In this document: positions 38,433 to 45,076 of the stretch, piece by piece
Layout: each line of letters opens with the position of its first letter
Numbering within the stretch: the stretch's first letter is position 1
DNA from: Chlamydia trachomatis
GTDB taxonomy: Bacteria > Chlamydiota > Chlamydiia > Chlamydiales > 2-12-FULL-49-11
Length of the DNA: 45,076 nucleotides
Assembly (NCBI GenBank): GCA_945862365.1
Contig: CAMAXK010000003.1
Span: 1-45,076, forward strand
Direction of reading: 5' to 3'
Notes under the pieces: generated by a model
Seen by the model: the letters and a program-made list of their open reading frames with translations, nothing else
The model's database searches: none
Told to the model about the DNA's origin: nothing
Translations under genes and position numbers: made by a program

Positions 38433-39710
38433 TTACTCTACTGGGTTGCCATTATAATAGGTGATCTTACGTACTAAAAGACCATTTTTATCGTAGATAT
38501 AGGCATCACCGACGCCATCAATCACCCGAGAAATTGGAATATTATCACCCTTCCTTAGATATTTACCATTTAATAGGGTATCTTGTCGATATTCTTCTAC
38601 CATCATAAGCGAACTATCCATATACCATGAAAGATAGGTTCCCTCTTTTTTATGATCGATCATCTCTTTTTCACTTTCTAAAACACCATTTGGATACCAT
38701 GTACATACTCGGCCATGAATTAACCCTTCTCTCCAGGTAATTAAAAGCTTTTTAATAGGCTCGGCCCCGATTGCTGCTGGATAGTAAACAATTTCTTCCC
38801 CATCTTTTTTCCCATCTATCATGTTATAGCAAGACTCAACTGTACGATCTTTTCTAAACGTTGTGATCGTTCCCTGAATTTTTCCCTGGTTATACTCTTC
38901 TGTTCTTGCTAAAACCCCATTTTCAAAGATCGGTTTTATCCCTTTACTATTTTCTATTTCTGAGTAGAGTTTCCCATCTGTATCAAAATATTTTCCAAAA
39001 ACTAACCTTCCATTTCTATACACCTCTTCATAAGCTCCGGCCTCTACTGACCCATTGAAATAAGCTTCTCCTTCTTTGATCCCATCTAAATAATTGATCA
39101 TCAACGTCAAATTACCCTGCTCATCATACCCTCTTACCTGTCCTATGATCTTATTTTTTGTGTAAGGAATCTTTGTTTTTATCGCCCCATTTGGGTAAAA
39201 GTATTGAGCCTCTCCCTCTTGAACTCCTTTAACATAAGGAATTTTTGCTACAATATTTCCATTTGAATCATAAACAGTAGATATATCATCAAACACCCAT
39301 GAGGTTTTTGCCTCATCGGTTAGATCAGCAATCCCTTCGGTCACAAAACTTTTAATATGAAGCTTCCCAGCCGTATCATATTCTTCATAAACTCCATGGG
39401 CTCTGCCACCTTTTGTTTCCAGATATTGCCAAAGTAGTCCGCTATCATGATAAAGGGTGATTGCCCCTTCTTGATTTTTATCGTAAACCTTAATGATCTT
39501 TTCGTGCTGCGATGAACCTTTTACATCGGTAAACTCAAATTTCTTTATTTGATCAGGATCTGTCACAGTTTTTGTATAACCATTACGATCAACAATTTGA
39601 AGATGAACAATAGTTGCTTTGTCAGATTTATGACAGCCCAAAGCAATCACTGGTAAAAGGATAAAAAGTGCAAGTTTTTTTGATGATTTCAAGATTACCT
39701 CTTTTGACAT
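38433..39710 (-). CDS. MORN_2-repeat lipoprotein
   Basis: The 425-residue lipoprotein has a signal peptide ending VIALGC (lipid Cys26). The rest is made of MORN-variant (MORN_2, YwqK-like) repeats of about 22-24 residues, of the form Y-D-x-x-G-x-[IL]-x(6-8)-[DN]-G-x-x-x-G, for example YDSNGNIVAKIPYVKGVQEG, YDEQGNLTLMINYLDGIKEG and WYPNGVLESEKEMIDHKKEG. Such repeats form an extended beta-sheet surface, probably for binding. It corresponds to CT648 in order and size. It overlaps the PilO-like gene by 16 bp and leads into ygfA. Which membrane carries it, and its partners, are unknown. Confidence 0.85.
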   Translation of the reverse strand: MSKEVILKSSKKLALFILLPVIALGCHKSDKATIVHLQIVDRNGYTKTVTDPDQIKKFEFTDVKGSSQHEKIIKVYDKNQEGAITLYHDSGLLWQYLETKGGRAHGVYEEYDTAGKLHIKSFVTEGIADLTDEAKTSWVFDDISTVYDSNGNIVAKIPYVKGVQEGEAQYFYPNGAIKTKIPYTKNKIIGQVRGYDEQGNLTLMINYLDGIKEGEAYFNGSVEAGAYEEVYRNGRLVFGKYFDTDGKLYSEIENSKGIKPIFENGVLARTEEYNQGKIQGTITTFRKDRTVESCYNMIDGKKDGEEIVYYPAAIGAEPIKKLLITWREGLIHGRVCTWYPNGVLESEKEMIDHKKEGTYLSWYMDSSLMMVEEYRQDTLLNGKYLRKGDNIPISRVIDGVGDAYIYDKNGLLVRKITYYNGNPVE

Positions 39711-40324
39711 AGTTGTAGATCAACAGTAAATAAATCTGTTGCCCCTTTATTTATTCGTTTAATTTTAAGTTTTGAAAAATACATTTGCGGACGATTTGGA
39801 TTAGGATAAAAAGGCTCTAAAGCCTCCCCTTCCACTAACGTCACAAGATTTTTTATATCGTTGCTATTGATTTCCACTTTGCTTTTAAGCTCCCAAACAA
39901 TCATCTCTGGCTTTTCATACTTGTTGAATTTTAGCTGATTTAATCCGTTTTCTAAAAACAAGAGCCTCTCTTTTACTTTTGGATATATATCTTTTTCATC
40001 TACTTCAGAGCAGATTAAAGCAAGCTTCCTTCTATCCTCAGATAAAAATTTTAATTCTTCTAAAACAGTTTTTACATAATCATGGTCAATATTCATTTTA
40101 GGATCCTGTTGATCGATCTTTCCACATGAATTAAGCAACTTTTCAATATAGACCACTTCAGATTCAAGGCCCCTTAGGCTAGAAATTCCATTCATGATAA
40201 AGGCGGCAATTGCGAGGATATAAACAATAGGAATGCATAAAATCAGGGCAAAAAGATCCCTTCTCAACATCCAATTGGGTGCTTTAAAAAACTCTATCCA
40301 TTTTTTATATAGTCCATTTTTCAT
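39695..40324 (-). CDS. Bitopic membrane protein, PilO/GspM-like
   Basis: The 209-residue protein has a short basic cytoplasmic start, one membrane helix (about 24-46), a long charged helical region (about 50-135, likely coiled coil) and a C-terminal alpha/beta part (about 138-209; MIVWELKSKVEINS, MYFSKLKIKRI, LFTVDLQLCQ). This is the layout of PilO/GspM proteins of type IV pilus and type II secretion platforms. It overlaps the PilM/GspL-like gene as ATGA, the same pairing as pilM/N-pilO or gspL-gspM. It corresponds to CT647 by order. The assignment is structural inference; sequence identity to known GspM or PilO is not evident by eye. Confidence 0.62.
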   Translation of the reverse strand: MKNGLYKKWIEFFKAPNWMLRRDLFALILCIPIVYILAIAAFIMNGISSLRGLESEVVYIEKLLNSCGKIDQQDPKMNIDHDYVKTVLEELKFLSEDRRKLALICSEVDEKDIYPKVKERLLFLENGLNQLKFNKYEKPEMIVWELKSKVEINSNDIKNLVTLVEGEALEPFYPNPNRPQMYFSKLKIKRINKGATDLFTVDLQLCQKR

Positions 40325-41877
40325 CCACTAACCTTCATATTTATTACAGCCATATCCCCTGTTTGAGAAATTCTCGGCTCCTCTACAAAATGTAATTTTG
40401 TATCAGGATGGATCAACTGCTCTTTAAACAAATCAAGGCAGGTCTTGCCTGGATTATTAAAACTAATGGTTACATCCACAATATATTCCTGCAATGGATT
40501 TGCATCATCAGGGCCTTTAACCACTTCATAACTTATTTCATCTACATAATATTGCTCAAACTGACTGGATGTTAAAAATTTTTCAAGACTTGCAAAAGGT
40601 GTCGGTCCCTTTCCAATCTTATCCTTTAATTTTTGCCCTTTAATTACCCCAGCAAGCGCTTTTTTAGTCTCGAGCATCCCTTTAGGGGTGTAAGAAATTT
40701 TTCTCTTTTTATCGCCTTCTAATCCATCAATTGAGAAAACAGCTGACTCATACCTTTTTTTCAACTTAAGCTCTTTTTTGATAAAACAGGTGTTTAACAT
40801 GAAAAATATCATCAATGAACTTAATAATGAAAGACCTACATAACGGCTAAGGTATTTTTTTGCCTTTTTTTTCTGCGCAAAAGGGATAAATCTTCCCTCT
40901 CCCAGCTGCAAAGTTTGTTTGTCTGAAACAACTCGATCTAAGGCAAGTCCTATTTCAATAGCATAAGAACTAAGTTGTGAAACGCTAAATTCTAAATGGG
41001 GCAAAAGTTTAATCTCTTCTAAATCAAGGGGTGGTAAATAGGGTTTTAATTCCCTACTAAACTCAGCATACCCAGTAAATAAAATTTTATTTACACCTAA
41101 TGCTATTTTTTCACTCTCCATGATATAGGTCCAAGCTCTTGAGATTTCCCTCTCTACTTCAAAAAACACCTCAGTGGCATGAGTTTCTTTATTTTCCTCA
41201 ATTGCCTCAATAAAAAGCTCCTGCATTTTATGCATATCTACAGAATCTAATATTACCTGATCTTTTTGGACAGCATCGATGATGTTTTTAAGCCCTATCT
41301 TAAAAGAGGTCTCTTTTTTCATCTCTCCTTCAGAAAAGTACATCATTGAGGAGCTCTCCCAGCCTAAATGGAACAGAAAAAATGATTCTGTCTGGATGGC
41401 AAAAAACTGAACAAATCTTTCAAGCGCCCTAGAGACAGTACTTACCCACTCAGAATCAATGCCTAGGGTCTTTACATCTTGAAGATGACCTTCCATTGCT
41501 TCTTTAGTATAGCCGTAAAGATTAACCTCTGTTTCCTTCCCTTTTCTTTTTAATAAAGGGACAAAATATCTATCCTCTTCAGAATATAGTTCATCTGAGG
41601 AGAGTTGAAACTCTAGCGCTTTTCTAACCTTTCGATCCCCAGTTAATGGGATCATAAACTTACGCAAAAACACCTCTTCAGAAGGAAGGGCTGAGACAAT
41701 TTCAATGGTTGGGTGAAAAAAGGAGGTTTTTTTTTCTAAAATTCTCTTTAGTGCATTTAGATTGTCAATACTCTTTTTGAATTCCTTGATGAATTCAATA
41801 CGAATCTTTCCCCTTCTCTTAGAGATAAGAGAAACTTTAAAATAATCGCCATCGGAATATAGGCCAAGTACATACAT
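40321..41877 (-). CDS. PilM-PilN / GspL-like inner-membrane platform protein
   Basis: This 518-residue protein has a large N-terminal cytoplasmic part with the PilM/GspL actin-like pattern: YVLGLYSDGDYFKVSLIS at the start, IVSALPSEEVFLRKFMIPL, LKTLGIDSEWV-type turn at TLGIDSEWVSTVSRALERF, then FFLFHLGWESSSMMYFSEGE where the second phosphate loop would be, and ILFTGYAEFSRELKPYL. A membrane helix follows (about 345-366), then a periplasmic coiled coil and a ferredoxin-like end (about 440-518; YYVDEISYEVV, EYIVDVTISFNN). This matches GspL, or PilM fused to PilN. ATP-site residues look degenerate. AAGGAG precedes the ATG. It corresponds to CT646 by order. Confidence 0.65.
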   Translation of the reverse strand: MYVLGLYSDGDYFKVSLISKRRGKIRIEFIKEFKKSIDNLNALKRILEKKTSFFHPTIEIVSALPSEEVFLRKFMIPLTGDRKVRKALEFQLSSDELYSEEDRYFVPLLKRKGKETEVNLYGYTKEAMEGHLQDVKTLGIDSEWVSTVSRALERFVQFFAIQTESFFLFHLGWESSSMMYFSEGEMKKETSFKIGLKNIIDAVQKDQVILDSVDMHKMQELFIEAIEENKETHATEVFFEVEREISRAWTYIMESEKIALGVNKILFTGYAEFSRELKPYLPPLDLEEIKLLPHLEFSVSQLSSYAIEIGLALDRVVSDKQTLQLGEGRFIPFAQKKKAKKYLSRYVGLSLLSSLMIFFMLNTCFIKKELKLKKRYESAVFSIDGLEGDKKRKISYTPKGMLETKKALAGVIKGQKLKDKIGKGPTPFASLEKFLTSSQFEQYYVDEISYEVVKGPDDANPLQEYIVDVTISFNNPGKTCLDLFKEQLIHPDTKLHFVEEPRISQTGDMAVINMKVSG

Positions 41878-42223: not shown

Positions 42224-43185
42224 AATATTTTAAGCCAATTACCATCAAAAATTTAAAGCTTCCTTCAAATATAGTTTATTCTCCTTTAGCTGGCTGCTCT
42301 GATCTTCCATTTAGAAGGATGGTCCGAAAATATACCAACAGCCTTATTTTTACAGAGATGACAAAGGCCGATGCTTTAGCACGTGGGGATAAGGGTACAT
42401 TTTCCATGCTCTCATTTACAAAAGAGATGCACCCAATAGGGGCTCAAATCTGCACAGAAAAAAAAGATATCGCAGGGGCAAGCAGTAAGATTATCGAAGA
42501 TTTAGGCTTTGATCTGATAGATTTAAACTGCGGATGCCCTGTAGATAAAGTAACTAAAGATGGCTGCGGTTCCGCCCTATTAAAGACCCCCGATAAAATT
42601 GGGGACATCATCTATGAAATGAAGAAAAACGTAGATATTCCTGTTACTGTAAAAATTCGCGCCGGTTGGGATGAAGAGTCTATCAATGCAAGGGAAGTCA
42701 CCAAGATTGCAGAGCAAGCTGGTGCTTCGGCTATCTTTATCCATGGAAGAACAAGAAAGCAAGCCTATAAAGGGCCAGCAAATTGGGATTACATTAAAGA
42801 TGCGTGCGATCAAGAGCGATCAATCTTAGTCTTTGCCAATGGCGATATTCGTTGCCTTGAGTCTGCACAAAAAGTGCTTGATCAAACAGGGGCCGATGGG
42901 GTTCTTGTTTCAAGAATCACAATGGGCACCCCCCATATTGCAAGAGACATCTTCTTTGGTGAAAATGCTCCAACACCTCCTGATCCGCTTACTCTGATTA
43001 AGGAACATGTAGAAGAGATTTGCGCCTATCAAAACCCAAGAAAAGCCCTCTCTGACATAAGGCGTGTTGCCTGTTGGTATCTTCGAGAGCAGATAGAGTA
43101 TACTGAGCTTCGAAGACAAATAAACATGTCAAAATCAGTTCAGGAGATTTTCATCTTTTTAGGTGATTGCGCGCTTCATGATTAG
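42220..43185 (+). CDS. dus: tRNA-dihydrouridine synthase
   Basis: This FMN enzyme reduces specific tRNA uridines to dihydrouridine, using NADPH. Seen in 321 residues, a TIM barrel: VYSPLAGCSDLPFRRMVRK, FTEMTKADAL, QICTEKKDI, the active-site block LNCGCPVDKVTKDGCGSALL (catalytic Cys106), VTVKIRAGWDE, IFIHGRTRKQAYKGPANWDYI, FANGDIRCLESA and DGVLVSRITMGTPHIARDIF. The C-terminal helical domain is complete. It is coupled to yggT; its stop overlaps the convergent porin gene by 4 bp. It corresponds to CT644 by order. Which Dus subgroup (A/B/C) is not clear, but the length fits DusB-type proteins. Confidence 0.96.
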   Translation: MKYFKPITIKNLKLPSNIVYSPLAGCSDLPFRRMVRKYTNSLIFTEMTKADALARGDKGTFSMLSFTKEMHPIGAQICTEKKDIAGASSKIIEDLGFDLIDLNCGCPVDKVTKDGCGSALLKTPDKIGDIIYEMKKNVDIPVTVKIRAGWDEESINAREVTKIAEQAGASAIFIHGRTRKQAYKGPANWDYIKDACDQERSILVFANGDIRCLESAQKVLDQTGADGVLVSRITMGTPHIARDIFFGENAPTPPDPLTLIKEHVEEICAYQNPRKALSDIRRVACWYLREQIEYTELRRQINMSKSVQEIFIFLGDCALHD

Positions 43186-44270
43186 AATAGATAGTTAAAG
43201 TCTAACACCGCACCAATCATCCCAAAGGTTCCATTTTCAATAATTGTTGGAAAAGAATTTAACCTTGTACTACTGCTACTATAAGCTTCTGAAGCTCTGT
43301 ATAATATTACAGGGTATTGATTAAAATAGATCCTTGCATCCATCCCAAGTTTAAAGCCCATCAAATGCTTCCCGCAAAAAGAAGTGGTTTTATAGTCGAT
43401 ACCAAAAATCCCTCTAATAGTAGGGGATATGACAAGGGATTGATCATTAGTTTTATCATATAAGGGAACCGTCTCTGTTGTTACAAACCCACTTTGATCT
43501 GTAAGGCTATTATTACCAAATAAAACTGCAATATTTGCAATAGAAAATAGTCCCCATCCGGTTCTAAATGCATAATTTGCCTCAGCGCCGGCCATGGGCC
43601 CTACCCCCCAAAAGTTCACCGTTGAAGTTTCTAGGAAAGAGGTATTTGCTGGCATAATAGTTGGTGTGGTAGATGCATCATCTAACATCGATCGAGAGGC
43701 GTTATAATAGATCCATGATGCCTCCAAACCAATGAATGGTTCATAAGAAACATAATTACTAATAATAGTACCTTTGTTTAGGCAAACATCTAGTAAAAAG
43801 TAATCAATATTTAAACTTGCATTAACTTTTTGGAAGAGAATAGGACTTGTGGTATTTGTTCCATAAAAAATATAAGGAAAATTGCTTGCTCGATACTCAC
43901 CACCTGAACTTACGCCGCCAGAAATTGACTCTTCCACATTAGCTTCTGTAGACATCCACTCAAATCCAGCAGAAAAAAGCCAATTATCATGATTTGTTTC
44001 ATAACCTAAGGCAAGCCTTAGCCCTGGATCTACATCAAAGGTGTATCTAATGGTATCGTCAGTGCGAAGAGATTGACTTGTTCCATCTCCGCTATAATGA
44101 TGCAAAGCTACAAGGGAATTTGAAACTCTTGCTTGTTCTAATAAAAGTCCTGCTTCAAAGTACCATTTTCCTTTATTTTCGCATGAAGGGGCTTTACAAT
44201 ATGAGGGCTCACTTGCATATATACTTTGAATCTTTACTACACTAAAAACAATTGCTAAAATTTTTTTCAC
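43182..44270 (-). CDS. MOMP-like outer-membrane porin (Legionella-MOMP/Lpg1974-type), copy 1
   Basis: This 362-residue exported protein has a signal peptide (MKKILAIVFSVVKIQSIYAS), a Cys-containing start of the mature chain (CKAPSC), and a regular beta-barrel: KWYFEAGLLLEQAR, TFDVDPGLRLALGYETN, NWLFSAGFEWMST, YFLLDVCLNKGTIISNYVSYEPFIGLEASWIYYN, WGVGPMAGAEANYAFRTGWGLFSIANIAVLFG. It ends with FGMIGAVLDFNYLF. This pattern fits the Legionella major outer-membrane protein-like family that is expanded in Simkania-type chlamydiae. The start is GTG 44270, because AGAGG sits 6 nt upstream; the TTG two codons earlier directly abuts it. It is tandem with a close paralogue. Confidence 0.8.
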   Translation of the reverse strand: MKKILAIVFSVVKIQSIYASEPSYCKAPSCENKGKWYFEAGLLLEQARVSNSLVALHHYSGDGTSQSLRTDDTIRYTFDVDPGLRLALGYETNHDNWLFSAGFEWMSTEANVEESISGGVSSGGEYRASNFPYIFYGTNTTSPILFQKVNASLNIDYFLLDVCLNKGTIISNYVSYEPFIGLEASWIYYNASRSMLDDASTTPTIMPANTSFLETSTVNFWGVGPMAGAEANYAFRTGWGLFSIANIAVLFGNNSLTDQSGFVTTETVPLYDKTNDQSLVISPTIRGIFGIDYKTTSFCGKHLMGFKLGMDARIYFNQYPVILYRASEAYSSSSTRLNSFPTIIENGTFGMIGAVLDFNYLF

Positions 44271-44328
44271 AACCAACCTCTAAAAATATTTTTCCCATTT
44301 TAACCGCTTAATTTTTTATTTAAAAGAA

Positions 44329-44381: not shown

Positions 44382-45076
44382 TTAGAAGTCCCAGCCTAGA
44401 TCTAACAATAATCCAACCATTCCAAAAGACCCATTCTCTATGATCGATGGATTACTCTGATGTGACATAAAAGTCACAGGATATTGGTTAAAGTAGTATC
44501 TTGCATCAAAACCAGCACGTAAGGCAACGTGCTGACTATCGCACATTACATACCTTTCATACTGAAGCCCTATAACTCCTCGCATAGTCGGGCAAAGTAC
44601 TTGAAGTGTTGTATCAACTTTATTCAAAACAGGTGTAGTCTCTATTGTTACCTCTCCGTCATAATAAGTTGAAGAAGATTCTCCTAAAAGAATAGAAAAA
44701 TCAGAGAGGGCAAAAATACTCCATCCTGCGGTCATATGGTAATTACTATTTAACCCTACCATTGGTCCTATGCCCCAAAAATCTATATCTGAAACGTATA
44801 ATTGCGTTTCATTTGAAGCTAAAGATGTATTTACAGATGTATTTAAAGATGTTAAACCTGTATTCCCAGTATAATAAATCCATGTCGCTTTAAATCCTGC
44901 AAGAGGCTCTAAAGAGTATTTGTTCGATATAAACGACCCTCTTGAAAGATAAACATCTAGCAAGAAGTAATCAATAAGTAATGTAGAATTTACCGCCGAA
45001 TAGTTATCAGTACCATCATCATACGTCACACAAAGAACCGTCGGAGCTATCACCTCTTTACTTAACGTTCCAGTTG
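44382..45076 (-). CDS. MOMP-like outer-membrane porin, copy 2 (5' end outside window)
   Basis: The frame is open from the window edge to a stop at 44382, about 231 residues of the C-terminal part. The GTG near 45053 is internal, since the paralogue aligns through it. It shares blocks with copy 1: LLIDYFLLDVYLSRGSFISNKYSLEPLAGFKATWIYYTG, FWGIGPMVGLNSNYHMTAGWSIFALSDFSILLGE, DARYYFNQYPVTFM and the end SFGMVGLLLDLGWDF. The loops between strands differ strongly from copy 1, as expected of surface-exposed segments. It ends in its own strong terminator. Confidence 0.8.
   Translation of the reverse strand, partial: TGTLSKEVIAPTVLCVTYDDGTDNYSAVNSTLLIDYFLLDVYLSRGSFISNKYSLEPLAGFKATWIYYTGNTGLTSLNTSVNTSLASNETQLYVSDIDFWGIGPMVGLNSNYHMTAGWSIFALSDFSILLGESSSTYYDGEVTIETTPVLNKVDTTLQVLCPTMRGVIGLQYERYVMCDSQHVALRAGFDARYYFNQYPVTFMSHQSNPSIIENGSFGMVGLLLDLGWDF

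Follow-up and report, generated by a model that had tools for sequence, protein, structure and literature searches.

A divergent GspL/GspM-type gene pair at the chlamydial CT646–CT647 locus

The locus and its conservation

The stretch of DNA analysed (the window, 45,076 nucleotides) lies on contig C3 of a genome that is 84% complete in 40 contigs. Near its end it carries three genes on the reverse strand, listed here with the basis of each assignment:

38433–39710, reverse strand: MORN_2-repeat lipoprotein, third gene of a tight operon, at the position of CT648 (Pfam match, conserved partner)
39695–40324, reverse strand: GspM/PilO-type platform protein of 209 residues, here called M (open reading frame, predicted fold, gene position)
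40321–41877, reverse strand: GspL-type platform protein of 518 residues resembling a fused PilM–PilN, here called L (open reading frame, family profile, fold)

The two platform frames were found with the lengths and at the places given in an earlier, sequence-only reading of the window, and they overlap by the four nucleotides ATGA at the junction GGATGAAA. The lipoprotein gene in turn overlaps M by 16 nucleotides. On its upstream side the pair is flanked by the YGGT and Dus genes, which are transcribed divergently, and on its downstream side by a 5-FTHF cyclo-ligase gene; this is the gene order of C. trachomatis CT644–CT649. Elsewhere in the window, a 364-residue protein (43182–44276, reverse strand) shows similarity (E = 6e-18) to the major outer membrane protein family of Legionella, and a neighbouring 223-residue open reading frame (44382–45053, reverse strand) looks similar to it by eye.

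L is matched in 206 of the 234 chlamydial genomes (132 of the 138 good ones), M in 196 (127) and GspF in 213 (136). Since nearly every genome has both L and GspF, their co-occurrence is weak evidence of a shared function. M directly follows L in the loci examined whose contig runs on, and the MORN gene is usually third; the exceptions are three genomes (G083–G085) in which L has moved away from M and the MORN gene. Of the 22 Chlamydiaceae genomes, 21 have a match to L, and in the loci read Dus and YGGT diverge from L–M. L has 459 and M 192 residues in three of these genomes, in agreement with the sizes published for CT646 and CT647 (PMC1403754). The pair had been said to keep the order of CT646–CT647, and this is borne out; by position, L and M are the orthologues of these two genes. 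Our literature search found no paper that assigns CT646 or CT647, and no interaction or phenotype data for them. Both belong with CT648 to the sigma-54 regulon and are co-regulated with it (PMC7482065). A scan of the window for sigma-54 promoter motifs was uninformative, with 233 matches against 224 expected.

Fold and family of the two proteins

Hydropathy gives L a single membrane segment at residues ~343–367. In the AlphaFold2 model (mean pLDDT 80.4, from an alignment of 17 sequences) residues 1–320 have an actin-like fold and residues 333–386 form a long helix. The predicted periplasmic part, of middling confidence (pLDDT about 75), consists of a coiled coil followed by a ferredoxin-like domain at 428–517 with the order alpha-beta-beta-alpha-beta-beta. 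L thus has, in a single chain, the layout of GspL, as had been proposed: an actin-like part, a single transmembrane helix and a C-terminal ferredoxin-like domain.

Taken as a single sequence, L matches the GspL model TIGR01709 with E = 0.0021 and 17.2 bits (curated cut-off 65) and the Pfam family T2SSL with E = 0.028 and 14.3 bits (cut-off 25.5), reaching neither cut-off, and has no match in the PDB. Judged by these scores, L is a divergent homologue and not a GspL equivalog. Searches with an alignment of 27 members of the L family are far more sensitive: TIGR01709 is matched by 15 of the 27 (best E = 1.8e-13), PilM (TIGR01175) by 14 (best 1e-15) and Amuc_1101 (NF045709) by 15 (best 6.8e-10). 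In the PDB, the best matches of the L profile are the PilM proteins of Thermus (9.8e-16), Myxococcus (1.2e-13) and Pseudomonas (1.4e-7), followed by GspL at E = 0.011. The AlphaFold2 model leads to the same proteins. In a Foldseek search of the PDB its first ten matches are all PilM (E from 1e-16 to 1e-14, best 1.4e-16), with FtsA next and GspL at E = 5e-9. The membrane and periplasmic part of L was aligned by hhalign with E. coli proteins; it pairs modestly with GspL (E from 5e-4 to 6e-4, probability 28–33%) and with no other protein tested, HofN (PilN) included. The homology of L to PilM and GspL is therefore established by profile and by fold. No second PilM-like gene scores above the cut-off in the genome of the window. 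Additional PilM-model matches seen in other genomes cover only model positions ~182–324 in frames of 361–415 residues and, from their size, may be MreB.

The PilM-type nucleotide-binding residues have been lost from the L family, as would be expected for GspL. The aspartate of the phosphate-2 loop is replaced by histidine or tyrosine in 25 of the 27 members and the canonical phosphate-1 motif is absent from the family, so that the actin-like domain is probably an ATP-dead pseudo-actin. GspL is generally held to be of this kind.

M also has a single membrane segment, at residues about 18–47 by hydropathy. Its AlphaFold2 model (pLDDT 84.4, from 15 sequences) shows a long helix at 22–72, in which the membrane helix runs on as a coiled coil, and a ferredoxin-like domain at 115–208 with the order alpha-beta-beta-alpha-beta-beta, the permuted form of the ferredoxin layout known from EpsM. 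The predicted architecture is therefore the bitopic, coiled-coil one of PilO and GspM that had been recognised from the sequence, with a ferredoxin-like domain at the C-terminus. Sequence searches of Pfam, NCBIfam and the PDB give no relevant match for the M family, GspM and PilO included, and hhalign of M with E. coli GspM and HofO gives scores no better than decoys. Foldseek comparison of the M model with the 350,542 chains of the PDB ranks PilO first, second and fourth, PulL–PulM third and Amuc_1100 seventh and eighth; the individual E-values are only 0.01–0.09, and the top of the list consists almost purely of this PilO/PulM/Amuc_1100 family. Lacking a sequence match and with such a list, M is assigned as PilO/GspM/Amuc_1100-like by its predicted fold, its architecture and its gene position, and not by sequence. 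Structure prediction had been put forward as the test of the original observation; an actin-like domain in L and ferredoxin-like domains in both proteins are predicted, and the observation is therefore not refuted.

Two other explanations of these likenesses can be weighed here. That the proteins are unrelated to the platform families and have their layout by chance is extremely improbable. The matches of L alone to GspL (E of 0.002–0.03) and the lack of any for M alone would allow it, but the family-profile and fold searches, which are independent routes, give E-values of 1e-13 to 1e-16 and refute it for L. Very unlikely, too, is a membrane-anchored division pair, with L resembling FtsA and M resembling FtsL or DivIC. 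Chlamydiae are not known to have FtsZ or FtsA; PilM apart, FtsA gives the best fold match for L, and two members of the M family weakly match DivIC (best E = 0.055) and one FtsL (0.17). However, none of the 27 L members matches the FtsA family at E ≤ 0.1, while PilM and GspL each match about half of them. A C-terminal ferredoxin-like domain, of the kind found in PilN, PilO, GspL and GspM, is predicted for both proteins, and the fold of M matches PilO, PulM and Amuc_1100. Relatives of L outside the chlamydiae, moreover, lie among type II secretion system (T2SS) genes, and we have set the division reading aside.

Relation to the gsp genes

The gsp genes of the same genome are on a separate contig, C23, in the order 414-residue protein, gspD, gspE, gspF, pseudopilin, pseudopilin; its GspE has an N-terminal MshEN domain. 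The 414-residue protein (L044:10614–11858, reverse strand) carries a membrane segment at its N-terminal end; its gene lies ahead of gspD and overlaps it, and the protein has no match in Pfam. Its homologues precede gspD in three other genomes (G083, G084 and G048), and it is a candidate for the GspC/PilP counterpart. Beside this gsp operon lies an 841-residue MORN_2-repeat protein (L044:2195–4720, forward strand); MORN_2 repeats are thus found at both loci, here and in the lipoprotein that is third in the L–M operon.

The pair had been described as unlinked from other secretion genes. This holds for the window and for most chlamydial genomes, in which L–M is not placed with gsp genes, but not for two: in G083, L divergently adjoins preD-gspD-E-F, and in G048 the order is gsp operon, recA, FTHF ligase, MORN gene, M, L. 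Since two linked cases among ~200 genomes could partly be due to chance, we regard them as support and not as proof. Outside the chlamydiae, the relatives of L sit in T2SS operons. A Nitrospirae contig has L followed by a GspM-like protein and then GspN; on one from Omnitrophota, L comes after pseudopilins and GspK and before an M-like protein.

Counter-evidence is provided by two nearly complete genomes, G049 (98%) and G052 (99%), which keep L, M and the MORN gene and in which GspD, E and F are undetected. This may reflect a recent loss of the machine, assemblies from which one operon is missing, or a further role of L–M. Also undetected in these two genomes (loci L079 in G049, L078 in G052) is the weaker second secretin match of their sister genomes, which is possibly the type III secretin. 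These genomes favour the reading that L–M is a real PilM-N/PilO-type pair that works mainly outside the GspDEF machine, its link to type II secretion being partial or ancestral. We know of no counterpart of the MORN lipoprotein in T2SS operons, and L, M and the MORN gene stay together where the gsp genes are usually elsewhere, both of which point the same way. A role in envelope organisation with the lipoprotein would be one example. Against this stand the near-universal joint presence of L and GspF, the two lineages in which L or L–M lies by the gsp operon, the T2SS operons of the relatives outside the phylum and the separation of L from M and the MORN gene in G083–G085, while G049 and G052 may reflect recent losses or assembly gaps. 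We therefore consider a main role outside the GspDEF machine unlikely, and envelope organisation, as its example, equally so.

The pseudopilins of these operons have features of their own. Of the 234 chlamydial genomes, only 4 give a match to prepilin peptidase (PF01478), which is undetected in the other 230, and none of the 17 chlamydial pseudopilin N-termini read has the glycine at -1 in the prepilin cleavage site, a residue that all four E. coli pseudopilins read possess (loci L044:4721–5576, reverse strand; L075:6093–8020; L034–L042). Because the enzyme and the glycine both appear to be missing in most of the phylum, the pseudopilins may be left uncut by prepilin peptidase, a suggestion we make tentatively. 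In G048, three further pilin-like proteins, one of them clearly DUF1494, and a 341-residue protein lie downstream of gspG (L075:6397–9045); these are candidate minor pseudopilins, which chlamydiae have been said to lack.

The platform model and comparison with known systems

A large survey found the chlamydial T2SS apparently without minor pilins and GspLM, and classed it as 'generic' for this reason (PMC6668835). L and M are a real, divergent GspL/GspM-type pair that fills the published gap. We think it likely that they form the inner-membrane assembly platform of the chlamydial type II secretion or type IV-pilus-like machine, and that L plus M is, with the same probability, equivalent to GspL plus GspM and to PilM–PilN plus PilO. 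The original proposal that these proteins complete the machine thus stands as regards the nature of the pair; a role in the machine is supported by the phylum-wide co-occurrence, the two gsp linkages and the operon context outside the chlamydiae, with G049 and G052 speaking against it.

In such a platform, the pseudo-actin domain of L would bind GspE, the ATPase, at its N-terminal MshEN-type region, and the coiled coils and ferredoxin-like domains of L and M would join the two in a heterodimer, as the overlap of their genes suggests. A ring of L and M could then pass on the ATP-driven work of GspE and GspF to growth of the pseudopilus and bring the platform into line with the GspD secretin, allowing CPAF and other folded proteins to cross the outer membrane. 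In a C. trachomatis gspE mutant CPAF secretion fails (PMC4067387), glycogen accumulates and fewer progeny are formed (PMC13158948). With CT646 and CT647 named as the platform pair, two conserved hypothetical proteins find an explanation, there are two specific genes to disrupt, and whether the machine is complete becomes a testable question. The machine as a whole might be a pared-down chimera of type IV pilus and T2SS, with a PilM-sized, ATP-dead GspL, a previously unrecognised GspM, a MORN lipoprotein and uncut pseudopilins, although we hold this wider picture to be somewhat doubtful.

Among known systems, the PilM-like Amuc_1101 family (NF045709) comes from a sister phylum, the Verrucomicrobiota, and matches more than half of the L members; its cut-off of 650 bits is not approached by the L family, and even the Nitrospirae relative scores only 95.8 bits. 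PilM itself (Thermus 2ych, Pseudomonas 5eou, Myxococcus 3jc8) has the full-size actin-like fold seen in residues 1–320 of L. It is a soluble, ATP-binding protein that holds the tail of PilN, whereas in L the domain continues into a membrane helix and a periplasmic domain of the same chain and has, in nearly all members, exchanged the second phosphate-loop aspartate.

With GspL (EpsL, PulL), L shares the actin-like part, the one membrane helix, the ferredoxin-like end, an M gene directly after it and the presumed lack of ATPase activity. It differs in that its cytoplasmic domain is the size of PilM, the form in GspL being shorter, in that the L of the window scores far below the equivalog cut-off, and in that L is usually unlinked from the gsp operon. 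For M, the comparison is with GspM (EpsM, PulM), PilO and Akkermansia Amuc_1100. Sequence similarity to these is undetectable, but M has in common with them the N-terminal membrane helix, the coiled coil, the alpha-beta-beta-alpha-beta-beta ferredoxin-like end and the place right after L.
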